Below are positions 30,600 through 43,960 of a stretch of DNA of 43,998 bases, in pieces; positions within the stretch are counted from its first letter, which is position 1, and each line of letters opens with the position of its first letter. The notes beneath the pieces were generated by a model that saw only the letters and a list, made by a program, of their open reading frames with translations, did no database searches and had not been told where the DNA came from. Source of the stretch: Bacteroidales bacterium (lineage in GTDB: Bacteria; Bacteroidota; Bacteroidia; Bacteroidales; UBA3824); assembly GCA_024401025.1 (NCBI GenBank), contig JAKSLV010000010.1:1-43998 (forward strand). Direction: 5' to 3'. The position numbers were made by a program, and so were the translations under genes.

Positions 30600-33500
30600 T
30601 TAAACTGCATTGCCGCTTTCGGCGTTGCCCGCCGCGCGGGCCGAATGTTGATTCATATAGGCGCTTGGAGTAAGTCCGAAACGGTCTTTGAAAACCGTGC
30701 TGAAATAGGCCGTGCTTACAAAACCCACCTGCTGGGCTATCTCTACGATGGAATACTTGTGCTGCTCAAGGAGTTTGACGGCCAGATTAAGCCTTACATT
30801 GCGCAGGAAGTCAAGGGTGCTCTGATTTGTGAGCTCCTTAAGCTTGCGGTGCAGGTGTACACGGCTGATGCCCACCTGTGCGGCAATGGTCTCCACGGTG
30901 AGGTTGGGGTTGCAGATGTTTTCGTTGATTACTTTCATAACTCGCTGAAGCAGACGCTCATCCGGCGATTTGATGTCGCCATCCTGTTTCTTGGTCTGCT
31001 CCTGACGGCCAAGGAAACGGTTCTTAAGCGAGATGTTCTTCTTGAGCAGGTTGGTGATGGTGTGTATCAGAACCGAGATGTTGAACGGCTTGGCAATGAA
31101 AGCATCAGCACCCACGTCGAGACCCTTGATGCGGTTTTCGTCCTGAGCCATGGCGGTAAGCAGTATCACGGGAACGTGGTTTACCTCCAGATTCTGCTTT
31201 ATCTTCTTGCAGAGGGCAATGCCGTTCATCTGTCCCATCATAATATCGCTCACAATAAGATCTGGCTTGGTTTTTACAACTGAGGCCCAGGCCTCCTCGG
31301 CATTTGAGAAATCCGAGACATGGAAGAATTCCGAAATCTCGGAGACGATATATTTGCGCATGTGCTCGTCGTCGTCCACCACCATGATGCGGAATTTGGT
31401 TTTGGCGTACTGTTTCAGGAACTCGTCGTCGAGCGGAGCAGCGGCAATGTTCTGAGAAACATTGTCCTGATTTTCCAGCACATACGAAGGCACCACCTCG
31501 GGAGCTATAATCTCGGAATCCTGGAGGTGCTGACGTCCCAATGGCAATACAATCCTGAACGAGCAACCACTGGATCCATCTGTATTATTATAAGGTGTAA
31601 TGGTGCCGTGATGCAGCACCACAAGCTGCTTGGCAAGATACATGCCCACGCCCGTGCCCACCATTGTAATGCGGTGGCTGTTGTCGCCCTGATAGAATAG
31701 ATCGAAGATGTGAAGAAGGTCCTCGTCGGACATACCGGTGCCGTTGTCCTTGATAACTATCTCTACATCAGTATCATGCTTGATGAGTGTGATGGTTACC
31801 GACCTGCCGCGCGGAGTAAACTTGAAAGCATTGCTCAGGATGTTTACAATCACCTTGTCGAAGTTCTGTGGATCGATGTAGACATCCAGCGAATCGATGG
31901 CGCAGTCGAAACCGAAATCAACTCCAAGCTGCGAGGCGTGAATCTCGAAACTCTCGTAGATGTTGCGCAGGAAAGCCACAAAATCAACCTTCTGGAATTT
32001 CATCGAAAGCTGCGAGCTGTCAATCTTGCGGAGGTCCATAAGCTGGTTGATGAGGTTGAGCACGCGCTGGGCGTTCACATTTATTATCTTGTAGCTGCGC
32101 TGGCGCTCCACGTCGTGATCGGAATTCATCAGCTTCGATAATGGACTTACAATCAGCGACATAGGAGTGCGTATCTCGTGGGATATGTTGGTGAAATATT
32201 CCAGACGGCTGTCGTTTACCTCCTTGATGTGCGATATGTGCTCCAGCTGCTTGTTGAGCAGGAAGCGCCTGTAGGTTACCATACCTATAATAGTAAGTAT
32301 CAGCAAAATAACAAAAGCCACCAACAGATAGAACCAAGTGGACCTGTACCAAGGATAATCGATGTTTACGGTAAAGGAGAGCACGTCAGACTTCTGAACG
32401 CTGTCGGAAACGTAGGCCTCTATCAGGTGGGATCCATATTCGAGATTGGAGAACGAAACCTTGTGACGCACAACGGGAATCCACGGACCGCCGTCGATGC
32501 GGTAAGAGAAATTCAGGCTCTCGGGGTTGCCGTAGGGCATTGCAGCAAATTCCACATCAAAGCTGTTGTCGAAATAATCGAGATTGAAAACCCTTGCATT
32601 GTAGAGCGATGTGTCGATAATCTGATGCGAACCCGACATCATTCCCATATACACGCGCTCGTTGTTGAGCGAGAAGTTGGTGAGCATGATGTTGAGCGCG
32701 CTCTTCTTGGGGCGGCCCTTGAAAGGCTTGAAGTTGACAATGCCATTAAGCGAGCCGAAATATATAAGGCCGCTCTGCGACTTGGTGACGGCGCCTGCGG
32801 AAAACTCCTGACTATAAAGTCCATCGGTCTCGTGGAAGTTAACGAAATTGCCCGACTGGCGGTCGTAGCAGCTGAGGCCGCCCTTGCTGCTTATCCATAG
32901 GTTCTGGTCGTTGTCGCCGGTGATGGCTGATACATAGAGACTTGGCAAACCCTCGTCGAGACCGTAATGCTTGAAGGAGCGGTCGGCGGGACAGAAATCG
33001 TAAATTCCGTTGTTGGTGCCAAGCCAGATGTGCTTGTTTACGTCCTCGTAGATGGAATGTACAATGATGCCCTCAAGATATGTGTTGCGTCCGTAAGTGC
33101 TTACAAAACTGCCAGTTGCAAGGTCCATGCAGTTGAACCCCGAATACGAGCCAATGTATAGCTTGCGGTTGCTGGATATAATCTGGCAATTCACCCATGT
33201 ATTGTTAATCTGGTCCTGAGAGAAATCATTCAGCAACGACGGGTCTTTCACATAAAAAATGTCGATATCAGAAAAATTATCAAGATTGATTTTGTAAACG
33301 CCTATTCCTGAAGCTGATACATAGAGATTATGCTCCTCAGGATCTTCCACCATACTGTATACGCTGGGCAGAAGAGTGGTGTTCTCGGTCTGGGGAAGAA
33401 CAAATCTGCTGATCTTTCTGGTGGCTGGATCGATGTAAATGAGTCCCGAGCTGTATCCGCCCACCCAGATGCGATGGCGCGAATCCTCGTAGATGCACAG

Positions 33501-34712
33501 CACGGCGTTTGGCACAAGGCTGTTGCTGGTGGTGCGCTGATAATGCTCCAACACGCGGTAATCGCTGTCTATCACATAAATACCGTCGTTGTCGGTACCC
33601 ACGTAGAGATTGTTTTTGCTATCCATGAACAGCGAGCTTACGCAGCAATCGCCTATTACATTCCTGTTGTAGCTGGATGGACCTATGTACTGGAAAACCT
33701 GATTGTCGGTAGGCCTCAGCAAAATGCCCCGCTGAAAACAGCCAAACCAGAAATTGCCCGAATTATCCCGCATGATGGAATGGACCTTAAGTTTGCGGCT
33801 GTTAACGCTCACGAAATCAAGGTCTTTGATCTCCCAGCCACCGTCAGGGGAAGGCTTCAGGTATTTTACACCTGCGCCGTCGGTTGCGAAAAAAACATTG
33901 TTGCGGTCGTCCACGTAGAAATCATAGACAGCGTGGAAATTCTGCTGGATGGAAACCACCTCCTTGTAGCTGCCATTGTCGGAGGAATTCAAAAGGAGAA
34001 CACGTCCCGCACTGGTTCCCACAAACACGTGGCCCGACGAATCGGGAGTAATGGAAAGCACGGTCTCGGAAGTTCCAAGGTCCACATAATCAACGATATT
34101 GAGAGTGGGATCCACCTTGGCGACGCCTCCGTTAAGATACGATATGTACACATATCCATCGGCGCCCTTGGCAATGGCCTCCACAAAACCCTTGTTGATA
34201 ATCTGTATGCGGTGCATCTCGAAATTATCATCTCCAAGGCGCTTCAGCAAAAACAAACCGTATCCCGACGAAGCCACAAAGGTGAGCGTGTCGTTAACCT
34301 CGCACATAGCTGATATAGAGACTCTTGAGATATATTGGCCGCTCTGCATGAAAGCGTGTATGTTGTGGAATTTCTGAGTGCAGCGGTTGAAACACTGAAG
34401 ACCTGTGGTGGTGCCCACGAAAATCTCCTCACGACGGTTCTGATATACAAAGCGCACATAATTGTTAAGCAGCGACGACGTATCGGCATCAGAATGACGG
34501 ACGCTGAAAAAAGAAACGCCATTGTATATATCAAGGCCATCCTCGGTGCTTATCCACACCAAGCCGTCCTTGTCCTGAAAAACATCGTTTACCAAACTCG
34601 ACGACAAATCGCTTCCTGCCTTAAACAAAATCTCTCCCTGGGCAAAAAGCTTATTGTTCAGCGAATTAAGCAATAAAATAAAAAATATGCAAAAACTAAA
34701 ATTAATTCTCAT
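30600..34712 (-). CDS. Hybrid two-component system regulator of the xylan locus (XusR-like)
   Basis: 1370 aa from the ATG at 34712; the open frame starts two codons earlier with a TTG, which is less likely. Signal peptide (to about 26), then a periplasmic sensor of two beta-propellers of Reg_prop repeats (such as DKDGLVWISTEDGLDIYNG) and a Y_Y_Y domain. One transmembrane helix lies at about 790-813. Inside the cell: HisKA with phospho-acceptor His near 845 (FTNISHEIRTP), HATPase (KDNGTGMS, VGTGVGMYLAKQ), a receiver from about 1104 (MVVDDDEH, IVSDIMMGQ) and an AraC-type HTH from about 1250. All key residues are present. It should bind xylan oligosaccharides in the periplasm and activate the susC operon downstream, as shown for relatives in Prevotella and Bacteroides. 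Confidence 0.93.
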   Translation of the reverse strand: MRINFSFCIFFILLLNSLNNKLFAQGEILFKAGSDLSSSLVNDVFQDKDGLVWISTEDGLDIYNGVSFFSVRHSDADTSSLLNNYVRFVYQNRREEIFVGTTTGLQCFNRCTQKFHNIHAFMQSGQYISRVSISAMCEVNDTLTFVASSGYGLFLLKRLGDDNFEMHRIQIINKGFVEAIAKGADGYVYISYLNGGVAKVDPTLNIVDYVDLGTSETVLSITPDSSGHVFVGTSAGRVLLLNSSDNGSYKEVVSIQQNFHAVYDFYVDDRNNVFFATDGAGVKYLKPSPDGGWEIKDLDFVSVNSRKLKVHSIMRDNSGNFWFGCFQRGILLRPTDNQVFQYIGPSSYNRNVIGDCCVSSLFMDSKNNLYVGTDNDGIYVIDSDYRVLEHYQRTTSNSLVPNAVLCIYEDSRHRIWVGGYSSGLIYIDPATRKISRFVLPQTENTTLLPSVYSMVEDPEEHNLYVSASGIGVYKINLDNFSDIDIFYVKDPSLLNDFSQDQINNTWVNCQIISSNRKLYIGSYSGFNCMDLATGSFVSTYGRNTYLEGIIVHSIYEDVNKHIWLGTNNGIYDFCPADRSFKHYGLDEGLPSLYVSAITGDNDQNLWISSKGGLSCYDRQSGNFVNFHETDGLYSQEFSAGAVTKSQSGLIYFGSLNGIVNFKPFKGRPKKSALNIMLTNFSLNNERVYMGMMSGSHQIIDTSLYNARVFNLDYFDNSFDVEFAAMPYGNPESLNFSYRIDGGPWIPVVRHKVSFSNLEYGSHLIEAYVSDSVQKSDVLSFTVNIDYPWYRSTWFYLLVAFVILLILTIIGMVTYRRFLLNKQLEHISHIKEVNDSRLEYFTNISHEIRTPMSLIVSPLSKLMNSDHDVERQRSYKIINVNAQRVLNLINQLMDLRKIDSSQLSMKFQKVDFVAFLRNIYESFEIHASQLGVDFGFDCAIDSLDVYIDPQNFDKVIVNILSNAFKFTPRGRSVTITLIKHDTDVEIVIKDNGTGMSDEDLLHIFDLFYQGDNSHRITMVGTGVGMYLAKQLVVLHHGTITPYNNTDGSSGCSFRIVLPLGRQHLQDSEIIAPEVVPSYVLENQDNVSQNIAAAPLDDEFLKQYAKTKFRIMVVDDDEHMRKYIVSEISEFFHVSDFSNAEEAWASVVKTKPDLIVSDIMMGQMNGIALCKKIKQNLEVNHVPVILLTAMAQDENRIKGLDVGADAFIAKPFNISVLIHTITNLLKKNISLKNRFLGRQEQTKKQDGDIKSPDERLLQRVMKVINENICNPNLTVETIAAQVGISRVHLHRKLKELTNQSTLDFLRNVRLNLAVKLLEQHKYSIVEIAQQVGFVSTAYFSTVFKDRFGLTPSAYMNQHSARAAGNAESGNAV

Positions 34713-34808
34713 AACCAAAGATATAAATCTTGAAGTAAAAATCGAGTTAAAATTAATAAAAATAAATGTATTATGGCAAAAAAATTAAGATTTTTTTGCT
34801 AAAACATG

Positions 34809-34846: not shown

Positions 34847-36307
34847 ATGTACACCTTTATAATAGCAATACTATTGCTTGTGGCGGGCTACCTGGTATAC
34901 GGCAAGATAGCCGAGAGGATAATAGGCCCCGACCCCAACCGCAAAACCCCGGCATACACAATGCAGGACGGCGTAGACTACATGCCAATGCCGACATGGA
35001 AAATCTTCATGATCCAGTTTCTCAACATCGCGGGACTGGGCCCCATTTTTGGAGCAGTATCAGGGGCACTGTTCGGAACGGCGGCATACATCTGGATAGT
35101 GGTGGGCTGCATATTTATAGGCGCGGTGCACGACTATATGGCTGGCATGCTGTCGCTTAGGGACGGAGGCAGCAACCTCCCCGAGATTATCGGCAAATAC
35201 CTTGGCAGCAAGGCTCAGCTGGTGATGCGCATTTTCACCATAATACTCATGGTGATGGTGGGCGCGGTGTTTGTATCAGGCCCGGCCGGAATCCTCGACA
35301 AGATAACACCCGACTGGATGAGCTCCACATTCTGGATAGTGGTGATTTTCGTCTACTACATCATAGCCACCCTCCTGCCCATCGACAAGATTATCGGCAA
35401 GGTATATCCGATATTCGCCATCGCGCTCATATTCATGGCCTTGGGCGTATTGGCAATGCTGATATTCGGAGGCTACGGAGCCACACTCCCCGAGATTACC
35501 GACGGCATCAGCAACCAGCATCCCAACGCCGAAACCACACCGATATTCCCAATCTTGTGCATCACAATTGCGTGTGGAGCTATCTCAGGATTCCACGCCA
35601 CACAGAGCCCACTCATGGCGAGATGTCTAAAGAACGAGAATCTGGGCCGCAAGGTGTTCTACGGATCAATGATAGCCGAGGGTATAATAGCGATAATATG
35701 GGCCGCAGCCGCCATCTGGTATTTCCAGGAAGTAGGCACACAGGAAACCAAGGCCGCCAACATCGTGGATTTCATCACCAAAACCTACCTCGGACAGTTT
35801 GGCGCCATCCTGGCATTGCTGGGTGTTGTGTTTGCGCCCATCACATCGGGAGATACAGCCCTCAGGTCGTGCAGGCTGATACTTGCCGACTTCCTTAAGA
35901 TAGAGCAGAAAACAATCTCGAAAAGGCTTCTGATATGCGTGCCTCTGTTTGTGGTTACAGCCGGCATCATAGTATACTCGCTGGCCGACCCCAACGGATT
36001 CAACATCATCTGGAGATACTTCGGCTGGAGCAACCAGGCGCTCTCGGTATTCACACTATGGGCCATCACGGTATATCTGGCCCGCGAGCGCAAGCCGTGG
36101 ATAATCACCATGATACCAGCGGTATACATGACGATAGTATGCGTAACATACCTCTTTATAGCTCCGGAATGTTTCAGGGCAATAGACGCCCTCAAGGGAT
36201 TGCTGACCGACGGCGTGGGCTACACAATAGGCGGCCTCAGCGGAGTGTTCGCCATAGCCATGTTCCTCAAATGGAAGGCATCTCTGCCACAGCAAAACGG
36301 TCTTTAG
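34847..36307 (+). CDS. cstA: CstA-family carbon starvation protein (peptide/pyruvate-type transporter)
   Basis: 486 aa, a very hydrophobic polytopic membrane protein with about 12 segments. Family landmarks: PGPDPNRKTPAY-like start region (IGPDPNRKTPAYTMQDGVDYMP, residues 26 on), LNIAGLGPIFGAVSGALFG, GAVHDYMAGMLSLRDGG and SGFHATQSPLMARCLKNE. CstA proteins take up peptides, and some relatives pyruvate, when carbon is scarce. The protein is shorter than E. coli CstA (about 700 aa), as is common for Bacteroidetes members. It is divergent from the xylan regulator, and its 3' end overlaps prmC by 41 bp. Confidence 0.9.
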   Translation: MYTFIIAILLLVAGYLVYGKIAERIIGPDPNRKTPAYTMQDGVDYMPMPTWKIFMIQFLNIAGLGPIFGAVSGALFGTAAYIWIVVGCIFIGAVHDYMAGMLSLRDGGSNLPEIIGKYLGSKAQLVMRIFTIILMVMVGAVFVSGPAGILDKITPDWMSSTFWIVVIFVYYIIATLLPIDKIIGKVYPIFAIALIFMALGVLAMLIFGGYGATLPEITDGISNQHPNAETTPIFPILCITIACGAISGFHATQSPLMARCLKNENLGRKVFYGSMIAEGIIAIIWAAAAIWYFQEVGTQETKAANIVDFITKTYLGQFGAILALLGVVFAPITSGDTALRSCRLILADFLKIEQKTISKRLLICVPLFVVTAGIIVYSLADPNGFNIIWRYFGWSNQALSVFTLWAITVYLARERKPWIITMIPAVYMTIVCVTYLFIAPECFRAIDALKGLLTDGVGYTIGGLSGVFAIAMFLKWKASLPQQNGL

Positions 36308-37154
36308 AAAATAGATCCTTAATAATCAATACATTACACATACCGCAATCCTCCATGAGGGTTGCGGTTTCTTTTCCCAGTTTCTCATTAATCTCGAAAT
36401 ACAGCCGTCCGCCGGGCCTTAGAAAACGGGCTGCAAACCTGCTGATGCTTCTGTAGAAAACCAGAGGGTCGGCGTCAGGCACAAAAAGGGCGTTATGCGG
36501 CTCATAATCAAGCACATTGCTCTGCATATCCTTTTTCTCGGAATCCATCACGTATGGCGGATTGGAGATTATCACATCATACAGTCCGTCATTATTTTTC
36601 GGGCTGAGGCTTCCGGGTATGGCACTCTCCCACCCCAAAATATCCACCTTGCGGAAATCCACCTCGCAATTGTATTTTTCGGCGTTCTGATGCGCGGTTT
36701 CAAGCGCCGAATCCGAAATGTCGAACGCATAATAGCGGTAGCCCGGCACATAACTGGCCAGCGATACGGGAATGCAGCCGCTGCCAGTGCCGATATCAAG
36801 CACATGGGCGGCACGTTCAAGCTTATCAAGATGATTCCTCACCATCATTACCAGCTCTTCGGTCTCAGGTCTGGGTATCAGCACCTTGCCGTTGGTAACG
36901 AAGTCGAAATCAAGGAACTGTGCCGAATTGAAAATGTATTCCAGAGGCTCGTTGCGTCTGGCCCTTTCAATTACGGAATCCACAAACTGGCCTGAAGCTG
37001 CCACCTCGCGTCCGGGATTAAGCACCATATCCTGATTGCCACGGCCCGTGATGGCGGAAAACAGCCTGCGCGCAAAAACCAGCCTCTCGGAACTGTCGCT
37101 GAACATATCCGAAAGGCTGGTTTTCAAATAATTATATAATTCAATATTTGTCAT
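36267..37154 (-). CDS. prmC: Peptide chain release factor N5-glutamine methyltransferase
   Basis: 295 aa. PrmC methylates the Gln of the GGQ motif in release factors 1 and 2. Seen: a helical N-terminal domain (to about 75), RPETE (95-99), SAM-binding motif DIGTGSGC (120-127), and the NPPY active site (198-201) that holds the substrate Gln. The C-terminus KDRFAVAE is typical. The start codon follows directly on the stop codon of the HAMP/GAF/PAS gene (TAAATG), so translation is probably coupled. Its 3' end overlaps the convergent cstA gene. Why it is at the end of a chemotaxis-type cluster is unclear. Confidence 0.92.
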   Translation of the reverse strand: MTNIELYNYLKTSLSDMFSDSSERLVFARRLFSAITGRGNQDMVLNPGREVAASGQFVDSVIERARRNEPLEYIFNSAQFLDFDFVTNGKVLIPRPETEELVMMVRNHLDKLERAAHVLDIGTGSGCIPVSLASYVPGYRYYAFDISDSALETAHQNAEKYNCEVDFRKVDILGWESAIPGSLSPKNNDGLYDVIISNPPYVMDSEKKDMQSNVLDYEPHNALFVPDADPLVFYRSISRFAARFLRPGGRLYFEINEKLGKETATLMEDCGMCNVLIIKDLFSKDRFAVAEMPSI

Positions 37155-39437
37155 TTAGAAAAGCTCCACCTCAATCTTCTGGATGAATGCTGTAAGTGTG
37201 TTTCTATCGCCTCTGTTGGCCTCGGCAATGGTGACGAGGATGTTGATGCGCTCGCCGGCCTTATCCACGAAGAATACCTCGGTGCGTCGTCCAACGAGAG
37301 TCTTGTCGCCATTCTTGAAGAAGTTTCCGAGATAGTTCTCGTCGGCAGAGATGTTGTCGCAAGGCAGCAACACCGAAATGTCTCTCTGGAGAACATCGGC
37401 ACGCTGAATATCCCAAAGCTCCTCGGCGGCACGGTTGAAGAGTGTGATCCTGTTGTCCTGATTGATGGTGACCACGGCATCGAGCATACCCTCCAGAGTC
37501 TTGTCGGAGAGGTTTTTCACAATCTCTACCTCCATATACTGGAGTTTCATCTCCTCGCGGGCCTCCTTGAGTTTCTTCGAAAGCTCCACCTGGTTTTGCT
37601 GAAGCTTCTGCTCCTGCTCGCGCAGTGTGGTCATATACTCGCGGTTCTTCTCCTCGATGCGTATCTGCTCGGTAACGTCGTTGCCGATGAATACGATTTT
37701 GGCAGGCTCGCCATACATGTCATGCACCACGGTGTAGGTGCCCTGGAACCAGCGCTCCTCGCCGGTCTTGGTAAACCACTTGTGACGGCCCTCGAAAGGA
37801 ACGCCATTTATGATGTTCTTCCATATCAGCTTAAACTCCTCGAGATCGGCCGCTGTAAGGAAGTTGAAAATGGTACGCTTGGTAAGCTCGTCGGGTGTAA
37901 ACTGGAGCACCTCGGTAAGTTTCGGGTTCATCTCCATCACGCGGCCGTCAGGACCATACTCCGCCTTCATGGTAGAGCGGTTGAGCGCGTCGATCTGACC
38001 CTTGTAGTCGAGGCTCTCCTTCTTGCTCTCGGTGATATCGATACCGAGGAAAAGAATCTTTACAGGCTTGCGGTTGTGGTCGCGCACCGAAACGTATGTT
38101 GCCATTGTCCAGACATCAGTACCCGACTTGGTAACGTGTTTCATATCGCCCTCGAAGTGCTTTCCGCCCGATGCGAGGTTCTGCCATAGGTCGTTGAACC
38201 AGGCGCGGTCCTTGTCGGATATAAAGATGGAAATATGCTTGCCCTCAATCTCTGAGGTGTTGGTGTATCCAAGCTTTGTAAGGAACTTGCTGTTGGCGTA
38301 GGTAAGGAAACCATCCACTGTGTACTCGGCACGTATCATGGTGTGGTTTACGGAGTTGGTGAAGCTTACGAACTGCTCGCTCTGCTTGGCGGCCTCTATC
38401 TGGGTGCGCTTAAGCTGCTCCATGTTCTTACGCATCTCCTCGTCGGTACGGGTCATTGCCTCGGCCTGTTCCTGCGATTCCTTAAGGAGCGCTGCTGTAC
38501 GCAAGTTGATGTTTACTGTAGAAATTGTGGAGGCGATGGTGCCTGCCACCTGCTCGATAAATTCTATCTGATAAGGCTCGTACTGGATAAAAGAGGCAAG
38601 CTCCAATACGCCGTAGATGTCGTCGTTGTATTTAAGGGGCACAATCACAAGGCTTCGCGGATTGGCCTTTCCGAGGCCTGATGTAATCTTCACGTAGTCT
38701 TCCTTGGTCTCCTTGATGAAAATAGTCTTCTGCTCCAGGGCACAGGCGCCTACAAGGCCCTCGCCCCACTCTATCTGAGTATCAGGATATTTCTTACGGC
38801 CGTATGCGTACGACGCCGTCATGTTGAAGTATTTCTTTCCGTCCTTGTTGGCCAGGATAAAGAATCCGGCCTGCTGTGCATTCACGTACTGCACAAGGTT
38901 CATCACCACCTCGTTGGAGAGTTTGTCGAGGTCGCCGATGTTCTCACGAAGAATCTGACCGAACTTTGCAAGACCCTCGGCCAGCCAGTGACGCTGCTCG
39001 TCCTCGTTTTTACGGATGCTCTCCTCCTCCTGCGATCTCTTGAGCTCGTCGCGCAGGTTGATGAGCGATTTACCAATCTCGTCGCCCTCCTTTACATCGT
39101 ACTGGAAGTCGGTCTGTCCCTGACGGATCTTCTCCACAAAATCGAAAATCATGCGCGACTTGTTCTGCTCCTCGCTGATATCGTGGCTGAGGTCGCTGAT
39201 ATGCTGCTGAAGCTCGTTACCGGTGTAATATCCAAAAGCAGCGAAAAGGAAAGGCAGAGCCACATTCACCCACATCATAGGACTCTCGCGGAAAGTCTCC
39301 AGCACGAGCTCCAATGAGATAGACTGGTCCTGAAACGCCATGTCCAAGAATACAATAATAGCCAGCAAACCCGTACCGATAATGAATCCCATCACGGCAT
39401 ACGAATAAGCGGCGTTGATTTGTGTTTTCTTTTTCAT
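37155..39437 (-). CDS. Membrane HAMP-GAF-PAS-PAS-PAS signalling protein without a kinase or MCP output domain
   Basis: 760 aa. Two transmembrane helices (about 12-34 and 54-72) with only about 20 residues between them, so there is no real periplasmic sensor. Then a HAMP-like segment (73-135, KEGDEIGKSLINLRDEL), a GAF domain (about 155-310, with GEGLVGACALEQKTIFI), a coiled coil, and three PAS domains (about 355-475, 480-605, 645-760). Coiled coil separates PAS2 and PAS3. No HisKA/HATPase, GGDEF or MCP signalling tip is present. It probably senses an internal cue and passes it to partner proteins of the che cluster, perhaps the cytoplasmic kinase-like protein. It has its own predicted promoter and is coupled to prmC. 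Confidence 0.8.
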   Translation of the reverse strand: MKKKTQINAAYSYAVMGFIIGTGLLAIIVFLDMAFQDQSISLELVLETFRESPMMWVNVALPFLFAAFGYYTGNELQQHISDLSHDISEEQNKSRMIFDFVEKIRQGQTDFQYDVKEGDEIGKSLINLRDELKRSQEEESIRKNEDEQRHWLAEGLAKFGQILRENIGDLDKLSNEVVMNLVQYVNAQQAGFFILANKDGKKYFNMTASYAYGRKKYPDTQIEWGEGLVGACALEQKTIFIKETKEDYVKITSGLGKANPRSLVIVPLKYNDDIYGVLELASFIQYEPYQIEFIEQVAGTIASTISTVNINLRTAALLKESQEQAEAMTRTDEEMRKNMEQLKRTQIEAAKQSEQFVSFTNSVNHTMIRAEYTVDGFLTYANSKFLTKLGYTNTSEIEGKHISIFISDKDRAWFNDLWQNLASGGKHFEGDMKHVTKSGTDVWTMATYVSVRDHNRKPVKILFLGIDITESKKESLDYKGQIDALNRSTMKAEYGPDGRVMEMNPKLTEVLQFTPDELTKRTIFNFLTAADLEEFKLIWKNIINGVPFEGRHKWFTKTGEERWFQGTYTVVHDMYGEPAKIVFIGNDVTEQIRIEEKNREYMTTLREQEQKLQQNQVELSKKLKEAREEMKLQYMEVEIVKNLSDKTLEGMLDAVVTINQDNRITLFNRAAEELWDIQRADVLQRDISVLLPCDNISADENYLGNFFKNGDKTLVGRRTEVFFVDKAGERINILVTIAEANRGDRNTLTAFIQKIEVELF

Positions 39438-39507
39438 AATCTCTCTTGAATATTATTTGGTAATTTTGTCAGATACGGCAAGCATCAGCGCATCTTAGAA
39501 AACTCTA

Positions 39508-39538
39508 CAAATGTAGAACAAAATTTTGACAAAACCAA
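39508..39538 (-). promoter_or_regulatory. Predicted promoter of the HAMP/GAF/PAS gene
   Basis: TTG (39536-39538), 20 nt, then TACATTTG (39508-39515) on the minus strand. The leader is about 65 nt. The box overlaps a near-palindrome (TCTACA/TGTAGA arms, 39505-39518) that could bind a regulator. It makes the receptor-like gene and prmC a sub-operon that can be expressed apart from the other che genes. Confidence 0.5.
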
Positions 39539-39569
39539 TCAATACTGCAAATAAATTGTCATATTTTTT

Positions 39570-39941
39570 TTACAAGCCCAATTTTGCAATCACATCAGCG
39601 ATGCCCTCGCTGGTGTAAGGCTTCTCGAGCACTGTATTAAAGCCCGCATTGTCGAACTCGCTCTGGAAATCCTCCAGGTTGTGGGCGGTGAGGGCCACTA
39701 CGGGGATGTTCCTGTATTTGGGATCAGACTTCAGCTTGCGGGTGGCCTCTATGCCATTCATAACAGGCATCTCGATATCCATGAAAATGATATCGAAAAT
39801 ACCCTCGCTCTCTAGACTCTCGAACACCTCGCGGCCATTGGAGGCTGTGCGGATGTTGCAGTCCATCTCCTCCAGCATCGAGGCCAACAAGAACTGGTTG
39901 GCGAATATATCGTCCACCACCAATGCTTTCAATTTTGCCAT
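39570..39941 (-). CDS. Single-domain response regulator (CheY-like receiver)
   Basis: 123 aa, only a receiver domain. Acidic pocket Asp10/Asp11 (VVDD), phospho-acceptor Asp55 (FMDIEMP), switch Thr85 (ALTAHN) and Lys107 (EKPYT) are all present. It has no output domain, so phosphorylation must act through protein contact, as in CheY. The sequence looks closer to the receivers of hybrid kinases (MDIEMPVMNG) than to flagellar CheY. It lies 65 bp after cheB, at the end of the che operon. Its partner in a cell without visible flagellar genes is unknown. Confidence 0.88.
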   Translation of the reverse strand: MAKLKALVVDDIFANQFLLASMLEEMDCNIRTASNGREVFESLESEGIFDIIFMDIEMPVMNGIEATRKLKSDPKYRNIPVVALTAHNLEDFQSEFDNAGFNTVLEKPYTSEGIADVIAKLGL

Positions 39942-40006
39942 AATCTTACAAGTTGATTAGTTATCTTTTTTTAGTTTATATTATATGCAATTAAGATACC
40001 AAAATA

Positions 40007-41080
40007 TCAAAAAGGCTTAACGGCAAACTGCGCAAGCTTTTCCAGGGGAAGTATCTTATCGGCAGCTCCAAGCTTTACGGCCTCCTTGGGCATACCGTAC
40101 ACCACGCATGTGGCCTCGTCCTGAGCCGCAGTCTTGGCACCGGCCTCCTTCATCTCCAGCAGGCCCTTGGCGCCGTCGTCGCCCATTCCGGTCATTATTA
40201 TGCCGATGGCATTGCTGCCGGCGTATCTGGCCGTAGACCTGAAGAGCACGTCAACGGAAGGTCTGTGACGGTTTACGAGAGGGCCGTCCTTCACCTCCAC
40301 ATAATAGTTTACGCCATTGCGCTTAAGCAATGTATGCTTGTTGCCGGGGGCGATGAGAGCGTGTCCGGGACGCACCTGGTCGCCGTTCTCGGCCTCCTTC
40401 ACCGATATGCGGCAGATATCGTTGAGCCTGTCGGCAAACGACTTGGTGAAATTCTCCGGCATGTGCTGTACTATCACTATGCCCGGACAATCGGTAGGCA
40501 TGGCCTCCAAGAAAACCCTGAGGGCCTCGGTTCCGCCGGTAGACGCACCCACGGCCACCACAACCTCTGTGGCAGGCGCTCCCCCTGATACTGACGATTT
40601 GGCTATCACAGCATCAGCAGAGAGCTTGGGCTCCACCCTCATCATCTGAGGCGTACGCGACACCACCTTGGCATGGGCGGCGGCTTTTACGGCCTCTATC
40701 AGGCGGTGCTTGCTGTCCTCGATAAACTGCTTGGTATCCAGGCGGGGCTTGGCTATCACATCCACGGCGCCATATTCCAGCGCCTTTAGTGCGGTGCGGC
40801 TGCCCTCGTCGGTAAGCGACGAAAGTATCAGCACCGGTATTGGATGCTGTGTCATAATCTTCTTAAGGAATGTGATGCCGTCCATGCGGGGCATCTCCAC
40901 ATCCAGGGTTATAACATCCGGAACCTCAGACTGTATTCTCTTGGCCGCAATATAGGGATCGCAGGCCGTGGCCATGATCTCTATATCAGGGTCGCTCTGC
41001 AGAATCTGCGACATGGTTTGCCTCACCACTGCCGAATCATCTACAATCAGAACACGTATTTTCTTGTTTCCCAACGACAT
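40007..41080 (-). CDS. cheB: Chemotaxis receptor methylesterase/deamidase
   Basis: 357 aa with both standard parts. Receiver domain 1-125: DD 14-15, phospho-acceptor Asp60 (TLDVEMP), Lys111. Methylesterase domain about 170-355 with the catalytic triad Ser180 (GASTGG), His206 (QHMP) and Asp302 (GMGDDGA). CheB removes methyl groups from chemoreceptor glutamates when phosphorylated. It implies that a methyl-accepting receptor exists, but none lies in this window. It is 36 bp after cheD. Confidence 0.95.
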
Positions 41081-41116
41081 AAGTCTATATATATTTAGTA
41101 ACTTTTTCTATAAATC

Positions 41117-41581
41117 TTACTTGGCAATCTGGCTCTTTATGTAACACTGCAACACCTCGCCGGTATGAGTGTTGAATATGATCTTTCGGCCATTGTTGCC
41201 ACCTGTAGAGCGGCCTACAATGGGAATGCCCAACTTATCCAGCATATCGTCCGCCACCATGATGTTTCGCTCGCCGATATGCAGGGTGGATGTGGAAACC
41301 GAAATCACCTCGCCGCCTCCAAACACCTTGGCCACAAGGTTCTTTTTCTGACACCCAAGCTGCTGCATGCGCTCCACAAGCCTCTCGATGGCTATGTTGC
41401 CATACTTGGGCGATGCCAGCTCCATGCCGTTCCAGGTGGGTAGCATGTAGTGATTGATGCCGCCTATGCCAAGATACCTGTCCCACAGACACACAGCCAC
41501 ACACGAGCCAAGTATCGTGGTAACCTCGGCAGGCTGCGCTGATGCAAACATCGTGGAAGGATATAGGAAATGTCTCGTCAT
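41117..41581 (-). CDS. cheD: Chemoreceptor glutamine deamidase
   Basis: 154 aa. The catalytic residues Thr21, Cys27 (ILGSCVAVCLWD) and His44 (GGINHYMLP) fall at the positions known from Thermotoga CheD. CheD deamidates glutamines in chemoreceptors and can be held in check by CheC or by receptor binding. No cheC is present here. It lies between cheB and the kinase-like gene in the same operon. Confidence 0.93.
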   Translation of the reverse strand: MTRHFLYPSTMFASAQPAEVTTILGSCVAVCLWDRYLGIGGINHYMLPTWNGMELASPKYGNIAIERLVERMQQLGCQKKNLVAKVFGGGEVISVSTSTLHIGERNIMVADDMLDKLGIPIVGRSTGGNNGRKIIFNTHTGEVLQCYIKSQIAK

Positions 41582-41627
41582 ATTCGATTACATTTTTTTT
41601 CGTTCAGAAAAACCCGACACGCTTGGA

Positions 41628-42530
41628 TTAGAAAATCTCCTCGCCGCCAAAGAACACCTCGTTGGCCTCGTCGGAATAATCGTTGCTGCCCATCTGCGAT
41701 TCTGGGATGGTGATGGTGAACTTGGCGCCCACGTTCTCCTCGGTCTCCAGCTCCAGAGTGCCGCCAAGGAAATCGATGTATGCCTTGTTGATTGATAGGC
41801 CGAGTCCGTGGCCGCGGTTGATGGAATTGATGCCATTATCCAGACGGCGGAAACGGTCGTATATGATTTTCTGATTCTCGGGAGATATGCCCATGCCCTC
41901 GTCGCGCACCGACACCCAGAGATTGCCCTCGTCGTTGATGCCGTAGGCTATCTCCACCACCTTGTTGGGGCGGTTGAAGTTGATGGCGTTGCAGAGCAGG
42001 TTGCTCACCACGATGGTAAGCTTGTCGCCATCGGTCTTGAACAGCAGCGGCGACTGCTCCGACTTGTTTACAAGCACTTTCTGAAGCTTCTTGAGCTCTA
42101 TCTCGCGCGAGTAGTTGTCCATAAGGCTGCCAAGCAGCTCGTCGATGTTTACCACCGAAATGTTTGGCTCCACAGATCCGGCCTCTATCTCGGCTGCCGC
42201 AAAGATATTCTTGAACTGGAAGTCGAGATTGAACGCCTCCCTGTTTATCATCATGGCCATGCGCTTCATACGCTCCACGTCAGCATCAGGGCAATCCACA
42301 ATACTCTTGCTGAGGCCCAGGATGGATGCAAACGGGTTTATCATCTCGTTGGTGATGTTGGAGATGAAATGGCTCTTCATAGCCTCGCTCTCGGCCAGTT
42401 TCTGATTGAGGTCGAGCAGCTGCTTGTTCATCATGTTAAGGTTGTCTACTGCATTCTTGTATTTCTCCACGCGCTTGCTGATCTCGGAGAGCAATACCTC
42501 GTCGCTTATGTTGTTTGTCTGGTTTTCCAT
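41628..42530 (-). CDS. Cytoplasmic histidine-kinase-like protein with Asn in place of the H-box His
   Basis: 300 aa, no transmembrane helix. N-terminal coiled coil (about 25-55), a HisKA-like helix, and an HATPase domain (about 150-275) with an N-box (VVSNLLCNAINFN), G1 (VRDEGMGIS) and G2 (GHGLGLS) motifs intact. The H-box reads FISNITNEMINP instead of FISNISHEIRTP: the phospho-acceptor His is Asn61 (codon AAC), and the usual Arg-Thr is Ile-Asn. ATP binding should work, but autophosphorylation at this site cannot. It may be a pseudokinase that modulates another kinase, or may phosphorylate in trans. It lies between cheR and cheD and is the only kinase-like gene of the cluster in view. Confidence 0.8.
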   Translation of the reverse strand: MENQTNNISDEVLLSEISKRVEKYKNAVDNLNMMNKQLLDLNQKLAESEAMKSHFISNITNEMINPFASILGLSKSIVDCPDADVERMKRMAMMINREAFNLDFQFKNIFAAAEIEAGSVEPNISVVNIDELLGSLMDNYSREIELKKLQKVLVNKSEQSPLLFKTDGDKLTIVVSNLLCNAINFNRPNKVVEIAYGINDEGNLWVSVRDEGMGISPENQKIIYDRFRRLDNGINSINRGHGLGLSINKAYIDFLGGTLELETEENVGAKFTITIPESQMGSNDYSDEANEVFFGGEEIF

Positions 42531-42565
42531 AATATAGTCAAGTATAAAAATAGTTCATAATAAAA

Positions 42566-43414
42566 TCAAATCCTCCTGAAAACAGTAGGCTTTATCTGCT
42601 GAAGCGGCACGTCGATGCCGGTAACAGATTCCGAATGACCAAGAAAGAAGAAACCGCCCGGCCTCAGGTGACGGCAAAGCTTGTTGATTACGCTTTCCTG
42701 GGTTTTCCTGTCGAAATATATCAGCATATTTCGGCAGAAGATTATGTCGAAATTGGTAGGCGCGTCAAACACATCATCCATGAAGTTCTGACGTGTGAAA
42801 CTCACCTTCCTCCTTATCTCTGGAGCCATCCTTACGGTAGGCTTCAATCGGTCCTTGCTGCGCAGCAGGTATTTCTTCTTGAGGTCGTAGGGTATCACCT
42901 CGGCGTGCTCCTCGGGATATATTGCCTGCACGGCCTTCTCTAGTACTATGGTGCTGAGGTCGCTGCCCATGATCTGGAAATCGAACCCCCTCGACTTAAG
43001 GCCAAACTCGCTCATCACCATGGCGATGGTGTATGGCTCCTCGCCCGACGAGCATCCCGCGCTCCACACCCTCACGAAATTCTGATGATGCACATCAAAA
43101 AGCTCGGGAAGAACGGTGTCGAGCAGAAACTCGAAGTGCTGGTTCTCGCGGAAAAAGTCGGTCTTGTTGGTGGAAACCACATCCATCATGTGGATAACCT
43201 CGTCGCTGCCACGTGGCGAGAAAACGAAATCCACATATTCGGAGAAAGTGGGAATCTGCAAGGCCCTCAGCCTTTTCTGCAAGCGGCTCTGCAACATGAT
43301 GTGCTTGGCCTCAGGCATCTTGATGCCATACTGCTTGTAGATGAAATTGCTGAGTTTCACAAAATCCGCCGCCGATAGTTTGGCGTCGTAATATGAAACA
43401 GGGTTAATCTCCAT
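42566..43414 (-). CDS. cheR: Chemotaxis receptor methyltransferase
   Basis: 282 aa. A helical N-terminal domain (about 10-80) is followed by a SAM-dependent methyltransferase domain with SAGCSSGEEPYTIA (the SAM site), FQIMGSDLS, and IIFCRNMLIYFD. The end has GGFFFLGHSESV. CheR methylates receptor glutamates, opposing CheB. There is no C-terminal pentapeptide-binding insertion that I can recognise. It is 30 bp after cheW and 35 bp before the kinase-like gene. Confidence 0.95.
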   Translation of the reverse strand: MEINPVSYYDAKLSAADFVKLSNFIYKQYGIKMPEAKHIMLQSRLQKRLRALQIPTFSEYVDFVFSPRGSDEVIHMMDVVSTNKTDFFRENQHFEFLLDTVLPELFDVHHQNFVRVWSAGCSSGEEPYTIAMVMSEFGLKSRGFDFQIMGSDLSTIVLEKAVQAIYPEEHAEVIPYDLKKKYLLRSKDRLKPTVRMAPEIRRKVSFTRQNFMDDVFDAPTNFDIIFCRNMLIYFDRKTQESVINKLCRHLRPGGFFFLGHSESVTGIDVPLQQIKPTVFRRI

Positions 43415-43444
43415 ACCTTATCTATATATTACAGCCCCGGTTAA

Positions 43445-43960
43445 TTATTCAATAACAGCCGCCATCTGAGACTCCTGACTGTCGGACGTTTCCTTAAGCA
43501 TCACAAGCTCGTCGGTAGAGAATATCTTGTCGATATCCAGCAGCATCACGAAAGTAGTGTCGTTCATCTTGTGGATGCCGTCGATAAACTTGCTCTTGTA
43601 CTTGGAACCAATGCCCGGAGGAGGCAGAATCTCGTCTTGCTGGATCTCGAAAACCTCCTTAACGGCGTCCACGAGGATGCCGGCGTTCACAATCTCGCCG
43701 TCGATCTCCACGTTAAGCACCAGAATCACAGTATCGCGCTTAAACTCGATAGGTTCCATGCCGAACTTCATACGGATATCGATAATCGGCAGCACGGTGC
43801 CGCGCAGGTTTATAACACCCTTCATGTAGTCGGGAGCTGTAGGCACCTTCGTAATCTGCACCAACTGCTGTATGTTAAGCACTTTGGCCACATTGATGGC
43901 AAAATACTCGTCGCCAAGTGTAAACGACAAGAATGAGCCTATTTCCTGATCCATATTCAT
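43445..43960 (-). CDS. cheW: Chemotaxis coupling protein
   Basis: 171 aa. A CheW domain covers about 8-150: EYFAINVAKV, ITKVPTAPDYMKGVINLRGTVLPIIDI (the conserved core) and GILVDAVKEVFEI. CheW couples receptors to CheA, so its presence implies both. Neither is in the window. The start could be the first ATG or the ATG two codons later. An AT-rich TATATAG lies directly upstream. This is the first gene of the visible cluster; whatever precedes it is cut off 38 bp further on. Confidence 0.93.
   Translation of the reverse strand: MNMDQEIGSFLSFTLGDEYFAINVAKVLNIQQLVQITKVPTAPDYMKGVINLRGTVLPIIDIRMKFGMEPIEFKRDTVILVLNVEIDGEIVNAGILVDAVKEVFEIQQDEILPPPGIGSKYKSKFIDGIHKMNDTTFVMLLDIDKIFSTDELVMLKETSDSQESQMAAVIE

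Follow-up and report, generated by a model that had tools for sequence, protein, structure and literature searches.

The chemotaxis (Che) operon described here lies at the right edge of a contig, C2, from a Bacteroidales draft genome, and the window analyzed is that entire contig of 43,998 bases. The draft comprises 2.84 Mb in 223 contigs and is 75% complete, with a contamination estimate of 1.28%. An initial annotation of the window had described an eight-gene chemotaxis-type cluster, and all eight open reading frames (ORFs) are found where it placed them, on the minus strand, with Pfam matches to the CheW, CheR, CheD, CheB, receiver, HATPase_c, GAF, and PAS families (Table 1). The intergenic gaps along the series cheW, cheR, pHK, cheD, cheB, rec, GAF/PAS, and prmC are 30, 35, 46, 36, 65, 132, and 0 bases. 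What we take to be the usual catalytic motifs of CheR, CheB, and CheD are visible by eye in the translations. The label pHK is used for a histidine-kinase-like protein without the phospho-accepting His, a lack already recognized in the initial annotation and borne out by an H-box reading N-E-M-I-N-P; Pfam gives no HisKA match.

Table 1. Genes of the cluster at the right edge of the window, in the direction of transcription.
Gene	Product	Position	Strand	Basis and remarks
cheW	coupling protein	43445..43960	-	Pfam CheW 5e-36; first gene of the operon on C2, 38 bases from the contig end
cheR	receptor methyltransferase	42566..43414	-	Pfam CheR 5e-58 and CheR_N 1e-15
pHK	histidine-kinase-like protein without phospho-His; proposed phosphatase of phosphorylated CheY	41628..42530	-	Pfam HATPase_c only; Asn61, Glu62, Asn65; acidic/aromatic C-terminal tail
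cheD	receptor glutamine deamidase	41117..41581	-	Pfam CheD 7e-29
cheB	receiver and methylesterase	40007..41080	-	Pfam; NF001965 above cut-off
rec	lone receiver	39570..39941	-	Pfam Response_reg; labeled in 58/140 loci
GAF/PAS	operon member, 760 aa	37155..39437	-	Pfam GAF_2 and PAS; labeled in 101/140 loci
prmC	release-factor methyltransferase	36267..37154	-	TIGR03534 above cut-off

The lone receiver and prmC reported initially are both present. The rec gene is not the operon's CheY; its top NCBIfam scores, among the matches listed, are with receivers of hybrid kinases. The 760-aa protein had been described as a HAMP/GAF/PAS membrane protein. Its GAF and PAS domains are recovered, and a single strongly hydrophobic segment that starts at residue 13, near the N terminus, suggests a membrane anchor; HAMP is not reported by Pfam at E 0.001. 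Gene content was compared across 140 loci, 80 of them found through pHK and many cut by contig ends. As prmC is labeled in just two of these (L112 and L113), it was rejected as part of the Che system and is a neighbor that probably falls outside it.

MCP, CheA, flagellar, and gliding genes had been reported as absent from the window, and searches of the whole genome for methyl-accepting chemotaxis proteins (MCPs), CheA, FlhA, SprA, and T2SSE likewise gave no hit on C2. Looking beyond the window, as the initial annotation had advised, recovers the missing half of the pathway. The CheA search found one gene, on contig C147, which ends 25 bases from the contig start and faces the edge of C2. Its Hpt, dimerization, ATPase, and CheW domains all score above the Pfam cut-offs. 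Upstream of it on the same strand are a STAS-like protein, a label that rests on a below-cut-off match, and cheY (C147:2163-2528). This CheY is a stand-alone receiver whose Asp53, Thr83, and Lys105 are conserved in relatives, and it scores 79.9 bits against the NCBIfam CheY model, under the cut-off of 189. Ten MCP genes (12 domain matches) are found on seven other contigs. A domain scan covering nine of these genes found the signaling domain in all nine, Cache in two, and HAMP in three, one of them below cut-off.

In relatives where the operon is unbroken, the order is STAS-like, cheY, cheA, cheW, cheR, pHK, cheD, cheB, (rec), and GAF/PAS. The gap between cheA and cheW is 56–64 bases in three of these loci (L111-L113), and the remainders at the two contig ends, 25 and 38 bases, add up to 63. 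C147 and C2 therefore very probably adjoin as one operon divided by an assembly gap; the join is inferred, since no exact overlap of 6–200 bases was found between the two contig ends. With CheA, CheY, and MCPs encoded elsewhere in the genome, the adaptation enzymes of the window belong to a full Che system, which is almost certainly real and complete.

Contamination or mis-binning, the latter a case that the initial annotation had raised, is a very improbable source of the cluster. A draft in 223 contigs at 75% completeness lends itself to such errors, but the contamination estimate is only 1.28%, CheA and the MCPs are encoded on separate contigs, and the named loci closest to this one come from Bacteroidales, with pHK proteins 66–78% identical. 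Mis-binning is unsupported because all four sampled congeners carry the cluster.

The premise that gut-type Bacteroidales lack chemotaxis genes proved too broad, because CheD matches are found in 107 of 393 genomes sampled from the order and 89 remain in a strict Che-positive set spanning 40 families. A survey of the gene order, also proposed initially, shows it to be conserved. The closest named relatives of the window's operon are Bacteroidales metagenome-assembled genomes, by their titles mostly from the guts of sheep, yak, goat, red deer, and horse. Among cultured relatives are Anaerophaga, Thermophagus, Marinilabilia, Breznakibacter, Labilibacter, Carboxylicivirga, Perlabentimonas, and Plebeiobacterium. 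The 80 named loci were found through pHK and are thus uninformative on its frequency.

The strict set is the 107 CheD-positive genomes minus 18, namely 16 with weak CheD and two, G077 and G181, whose CheD stands alone (L070 and L058). Among the 16, 11 were inspected, and G050, G067, G270, G297, and G332 were left uninspected. A total of 81 main loci were examined, leaving part of the 89 uninspected: two have a lone CheD, three end at cheD, two are without pHK, and 74 have it. A further set of 80 CheD-positive genomes was derived from the 107 by removing 19 less than 90% complete (the source genome was kept) and eight with weak CheD or higher contamination. It retains nine of the 18 genomes dropped later, and 71 of its members are strict Che-positive.

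CheD alone was rejected as a Che marker because it is too loose. Twenty places were examined, 19 of them weaker or secondary CheD hits and the other in G035; at 18 there is no CheA, CheB, or pHK of the present type beside cheD within the stretch examined. CheD homologs without these neighbors are found at L224, L225, L227-L241, and L243, as well as at L058 and L070. The other two places are L242, a normal cluster in G035, and L226 (G247:C26:3000-21500), a different Che cluster in a Bacteroidales genome. L226 has no pHK and two CheY genes, in the order MCP, cheY, cheA, cheW, cheD, second cheY, cheR, cheB, and cheW; its carrier, G247, is among the 18 dropped genomes.

The unusual component of the operon is pHK, a soluble protein of 300 residues without a membrane-type hydrophobic segment. 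Pfam finds HATPase_c (1e-20) and, at E 0.001, no HisKA and no CheX or CheC match; among the matches listed (25 of 71), no NCBIfam model scores above its cut-off. When searched as a profile against the PDB, pHK aligns in register with HisKA kinases, for example 5uht and 3dge (HK853), and DivL and RetS are also matched. We propose that pHK derives from a histidine kinase. Like the phosphatase-capable HisKA kinases CrdS, HK853, and EnvZ, it has a HisKA-type four-helix region and an ATPase domain. It differs from them in having Asn for the phospho-His, Ile or Val for Arg or Lys at +3, and Asn for Thr at +4, and in being a soluble 300-aa protein inside a che operon.

These substitutions are fixed to a high degree. 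The family H-box is N-E-[IM]-[IV]-N-P, as opposed to the usual H-E-x-R-T-P. In an alignment of 120 distinct sequences plus that of the window (121 rows, one of them truncated), Asn at the His position, Glu at +1, Asn at +4, and Pro at +5 are each found in 120 of 120 rows. A further 21 pHKs, partly from the same species as the first set, all have both Asn residues, and 20 have Glu at +1, the sole exception being a Gln in G035. By comparison, the 29 nearest non-pHK kinases of a phylum sample all have the His, with Thr (28) or Ser (1) at +4. The ATP site is largely intact: all 121 rows have Asn177, Asn181, Gly212, Gly240, and Gly242, while 118 have Asp210 and Gly214 and 120 have Gly244. The ATPase domain is followed by an acidic/aromatic tail whose last residue is Phe in 115 of 121 rows and which is somewhat reminiscent of the CheY-binding C terminus of CheZ. 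His54 was rejected as an alternative phospho-acceptor, as Asn takes its place in five of 120 rows.

The position of pHK is conserved as well. Of the clusters located by way of CheD, 76 could be assessed, and in 74 of them pHK separates cheR from cheD, a few having an extra labeled gene between. Among the 140 loci, 133 have a labeled pHK; the next gene downstream is cheD in 132 of these, and the next upstream is cheR in 122. In Bacillus subtilis cheC adjoins cheD, as pHK does here. Outside the order, no protein scoring near 435 bits was found and the next best reached 176, a weak negative drawn from the best six candidates in each of 395 phylum genomes, among the matches listed.

Work on HisKA kinases gives these residues a possible function. 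In the sections of the CrdS study drawn on here, phosphatase activity depends on an Asn or Thr at +4 but not on the His (PMC3510030). There the half-life of phosphorylated CrdA was 53.5 min alone, 0.7 min with the wild type, 2.6 min with H371A, and 47.6 min with N375A, and CheX is described as acting on CheY through an E-x-x-N pair (PMC3510030). With Asn at +4 of the His position in 120/120 and 21/21 sequences, pHK has the corresponding residue. CheX and pHK thus have the E-x-x-N motif in common (for CheX per PMC3510030), but pHK is a different family from CheX and CheC and matches the ATPase family only in Pfam. From sequence, the chances are about even that pHK is a phosphatase of phosphorylated CheY (CheY-P) derived from a histidine kinase.

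A CheX match was found in only one of the 80 CheD-positive genomes, in a search whose CheX-family controls hit B. subtilis and Thermotoga maritima. The matching genome, G035, has a CheX/CheC-like ORF (L191:1300-1917, on G035:C151) beside cheB and a HEAT-like ORF. The contig gives the impression that it may be foreign. That the CheX match and the pHK with Gln for Glu occur in the same genome is a coincidence not used as evidence.

Several points weigh against pHK as a CheY-P phosphatase. For one, the search for alternative phosphatases covered CheX, found in 1/80 genomes, and did not extend to CheC and CheZ. Second, Glu at +1 is a kinase residue dispensable for phosphatase activity in the CrdS work as cited (PMC3510030), and a phosphatase role alone therefore does not account for the conservation of this Glu in pHK; one pHK, in G035, has Gln there. 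The mostly retained ATP site would have no obvious use in a minimal phosphatase. The L226 cluster has no pHK and is in a genome without a CheX match, and pHK is also absent from L066 and L081, which have the same general order with cheR directly followed by cheD. At L081 a divergent kinase-like ORF lies near an oppositely oriented cheA.

Elsewhere, DivL and RetS act as noncatalytic pseudokinases, and both were matched when the pHK profile was run against the PDB. The Che system could be as described while pHK serves as a pseudokinase of this sort, a sink, scaffold, or allosteric inhibitor that binds CheY-P, CheA, or another kinase. The largely kept ATP-binding boxes fit such a role, as does Glu at +1, present in nearly all rows and a kinase residue in the cited part of PMC3510030. 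A pure scaffold is not expected to fix Asn at +4 in every row examined, when Thr or Ser occupies that place in the 29 closest non-pHK kinases, and the pseudokinase role is somewhat improbable. It is quite unlikely that pHK is a phosphatase for rec or for the CheB receiver, even though both are encoded in the same operon. CheY is a likelier target than rec because CheY is labeled in 93 of the 140 loci and rec in 58, many loci being cut by contig ends, and pHK itself is labeled in 133 (80 loci having been found through it).

What the system controls was approached through the motility genes of the order. FlhA was not found in the draft genome, and it scored above cut-off in none of the 80 CheD-positive genomes, with two weak fragments below. 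The initial annotation had suggested a chemosensory system that controls something other than swimming, and it is partly supported: judged by FlhA, there is no swimming machinery. CheA, CheY, and MCPs do exist in the genome, however, and the operon is spread over 40 families of the order. Its call for a genome-wide motility search gave a mixed picture, with no FlhA and no T2SSE-family ATPase in the draft, SprA present, and GldJ in the four congeners and not in the draft itself. PilT passed its cut-off in none of the 80 genomes, with 19 matches below, 16 of which are probably secretion ATPases. Retracting type IV pili were rejected as the output for this genus (0/5 genomes).

The presence of SprA indicates a type IX secretion system (T9SS). 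SprA is useless as a discriminating marker, being found in 369 of 393 genomes and in 105 of the 107 CheD-positive ones (G226 is without it and G329 is absent from the listing). GldJ is more informative. It is described as a part of the gliding track that is missing from the T9SS of nonmotile Porphyromonas gingivalis in the portion of PMC12239597 cited here. With a threshold of 1e-40, GldJ is missing in 99 of the 393 genomes, and 187 of the 393 score above the cut-off that comes with the model. It is present in 85 of 89 strict Che-positive genomes and in 209 of 304 others (Fisher 2.4e-8, genomes taken as independent). When every CheD-positive genome is included, GldJ is present in 103 of 107, compared with 191 of 286 others. 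The four strict Che-positive genomes without it are G000 (75% complete), G226 (82%), G392 (85%), and G163 (91%, with an intermediate score of 3.9e-29). At the level of families, 22 are without GldJ in every sampled member, and none of these is among the 40 strict Che-positive families (hypergeometric 4e-5 if families are independent). All four sampled congeners have GldJ, at 2.1e-125 to 6.8e-134.

This co-occurrence makes T9SS gliding the likeliest output, with somewhat better than even chances. Support for control of the motor comes from PorX of Flavobacterium johnsoniae, whose receiver domain, in the cited part of PMC10951265, binds the cytoplasmic part of GldL; the phospho-accepting Asp must be intact or mimicked, and Ala abolishes binding (PMC10951265). 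CheY-like control of the T9SS motor is therefore plausible.

The case for gliding also has its weaknesses. The GldJ threshold was chosen after the bimodal best scores were seen, and the draft genome itself, at 75% completeness, has no match at that threshold (best 1.7e-19). The link with GldJ may come from shared ancestry or from joint loss in host-adapted lineages. Since 209 of 304 genomes outside the strict set have GldJ, gliding genes do not need a Che system.

An output other than gliding direction, such as T9SS secretion, exopolysaccharide, cyclic-di-GMP, or gene expression, is unlikely; it would come near the alternative function suggested initially. The T9SS also secretes and SprA is nearly universal in the sample, and the GAF/PAS protein and rec are extra signaling parts, but the Che system tracks gldJ beyond chance by the Fisher test given above, with genomes taken as independent, as expected for gliding. 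The system may still control enzyme release, one of the outputs suggested initially, because the gliding motor also drives secretion.

In the pathway as proposed, MCPs would drive CheA, and CheA would phosphorylate CheY. CheY-P would then change how actively or in which direction the T9SS gliding motor runs, perhaps through the part of GldL that lies in the cytoplasm, while CheR, CheB, and CheD would adapt the receptors. The pHK protein, apparently a histidine kinase minus its phospho-His with the neighboring residues kept, would dephosphorylate CheY-P in place of CheX, CheC, or CheZ, and the GAF/PAS protein and rec may add a side input. Taken as a whole, a complete Che operon with T9SS gliding as its output and pHK resetting CheY-P is put forward tentatively, at a little less than an even chance. 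The more specific proposal, that gliding is steered by a full Che pathway in which a phosphatase of a new kind resets CheY-P, namely a histidine kinase locked in phosphatase mode by a His-to-Asn exchange and encoded beside cheD, is possible but somewhat improbable.

Two known systems are useful for comparison. The Che systems of B. subtilis and T. maritima that include CheD have the same MCP, CheA, CheW, CheY, CheR, CheB, and CheD components. They drive flagella and use CheC, CheX, or FliY as the CheY-P phosphatase, whereas here FlhA was not found and pHK sits beside cheD. The interaction of PorX with GldL or PorL is similar in that binding of a CheY-like receiver to GldL, a protein of the T9SS motor, depends on phosphorylation, according to the cited part of PMC10951265. 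PorX differs in that it joins a receiver to a PglZ domain and belongs to a two-component system without MCP, CheA, or adaptation.

Other genes recur around the operon. Downstream of the GAF/PAS gene, 19 loci have a second, divergent CheR-like protein and 18 loci have a lone CheB catalytic domain without a receiver; examples of these extra genes are at L161:15347-16249 and L165:16420-17040. A small secreted protein about 8.2 kb upstream of cheD, on the same strand, recurs in 17 loci and has the look of the YfiR family. Within the window, a CstA-family protein (carbon starvation or peptide uptake) at 34847-36307 on the plus strand is convergent with the che operon, and ORFs resembling it lie close to a small number of related loci. 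A 1372-aa ORF at 30600-34718 on the minus strand has by eye the look of a hybrid two-component regulator, with periplasmic repeats, a kinase, a receiver, and an AraC-type domain.

The Che parts of this operon are ordinary. What seems new is a Bacteroidales Che operon that tracks gliding genes and contains a fixed, kinase-derived component. Searches of open-licence papers turned up none that deals with this operon, with pHK, or with control of T9SS gliding by a Che system. The introduction of a 2025 paper states that nothing is known of the mechanisms regulating rotational direction, and the same paper, in the part cited, reports that the GldJ C terminus affects that direction (PMC12239597). 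A 2026 review of gliding, in the sections drawn on here, makes no mention of chemosensory systems, CheA, or Frz (PMC13104615). A Che operon that tracks gldJ makes the question of gliding direction testable in cultured genera. If the proposal is true, it would mean that the T9SS gliding motor is controlled from the cytoplasm; how the direction of this motor is set is poorly understood. Should pHK prove to be a phosphatase, it would represent a new class of CheY phosphatase, and a kinase turned dedicated phosphatase and fixed in numerous families would be nature's parallel to laboratory His-to-Ala mutants such as CrdS H371A.

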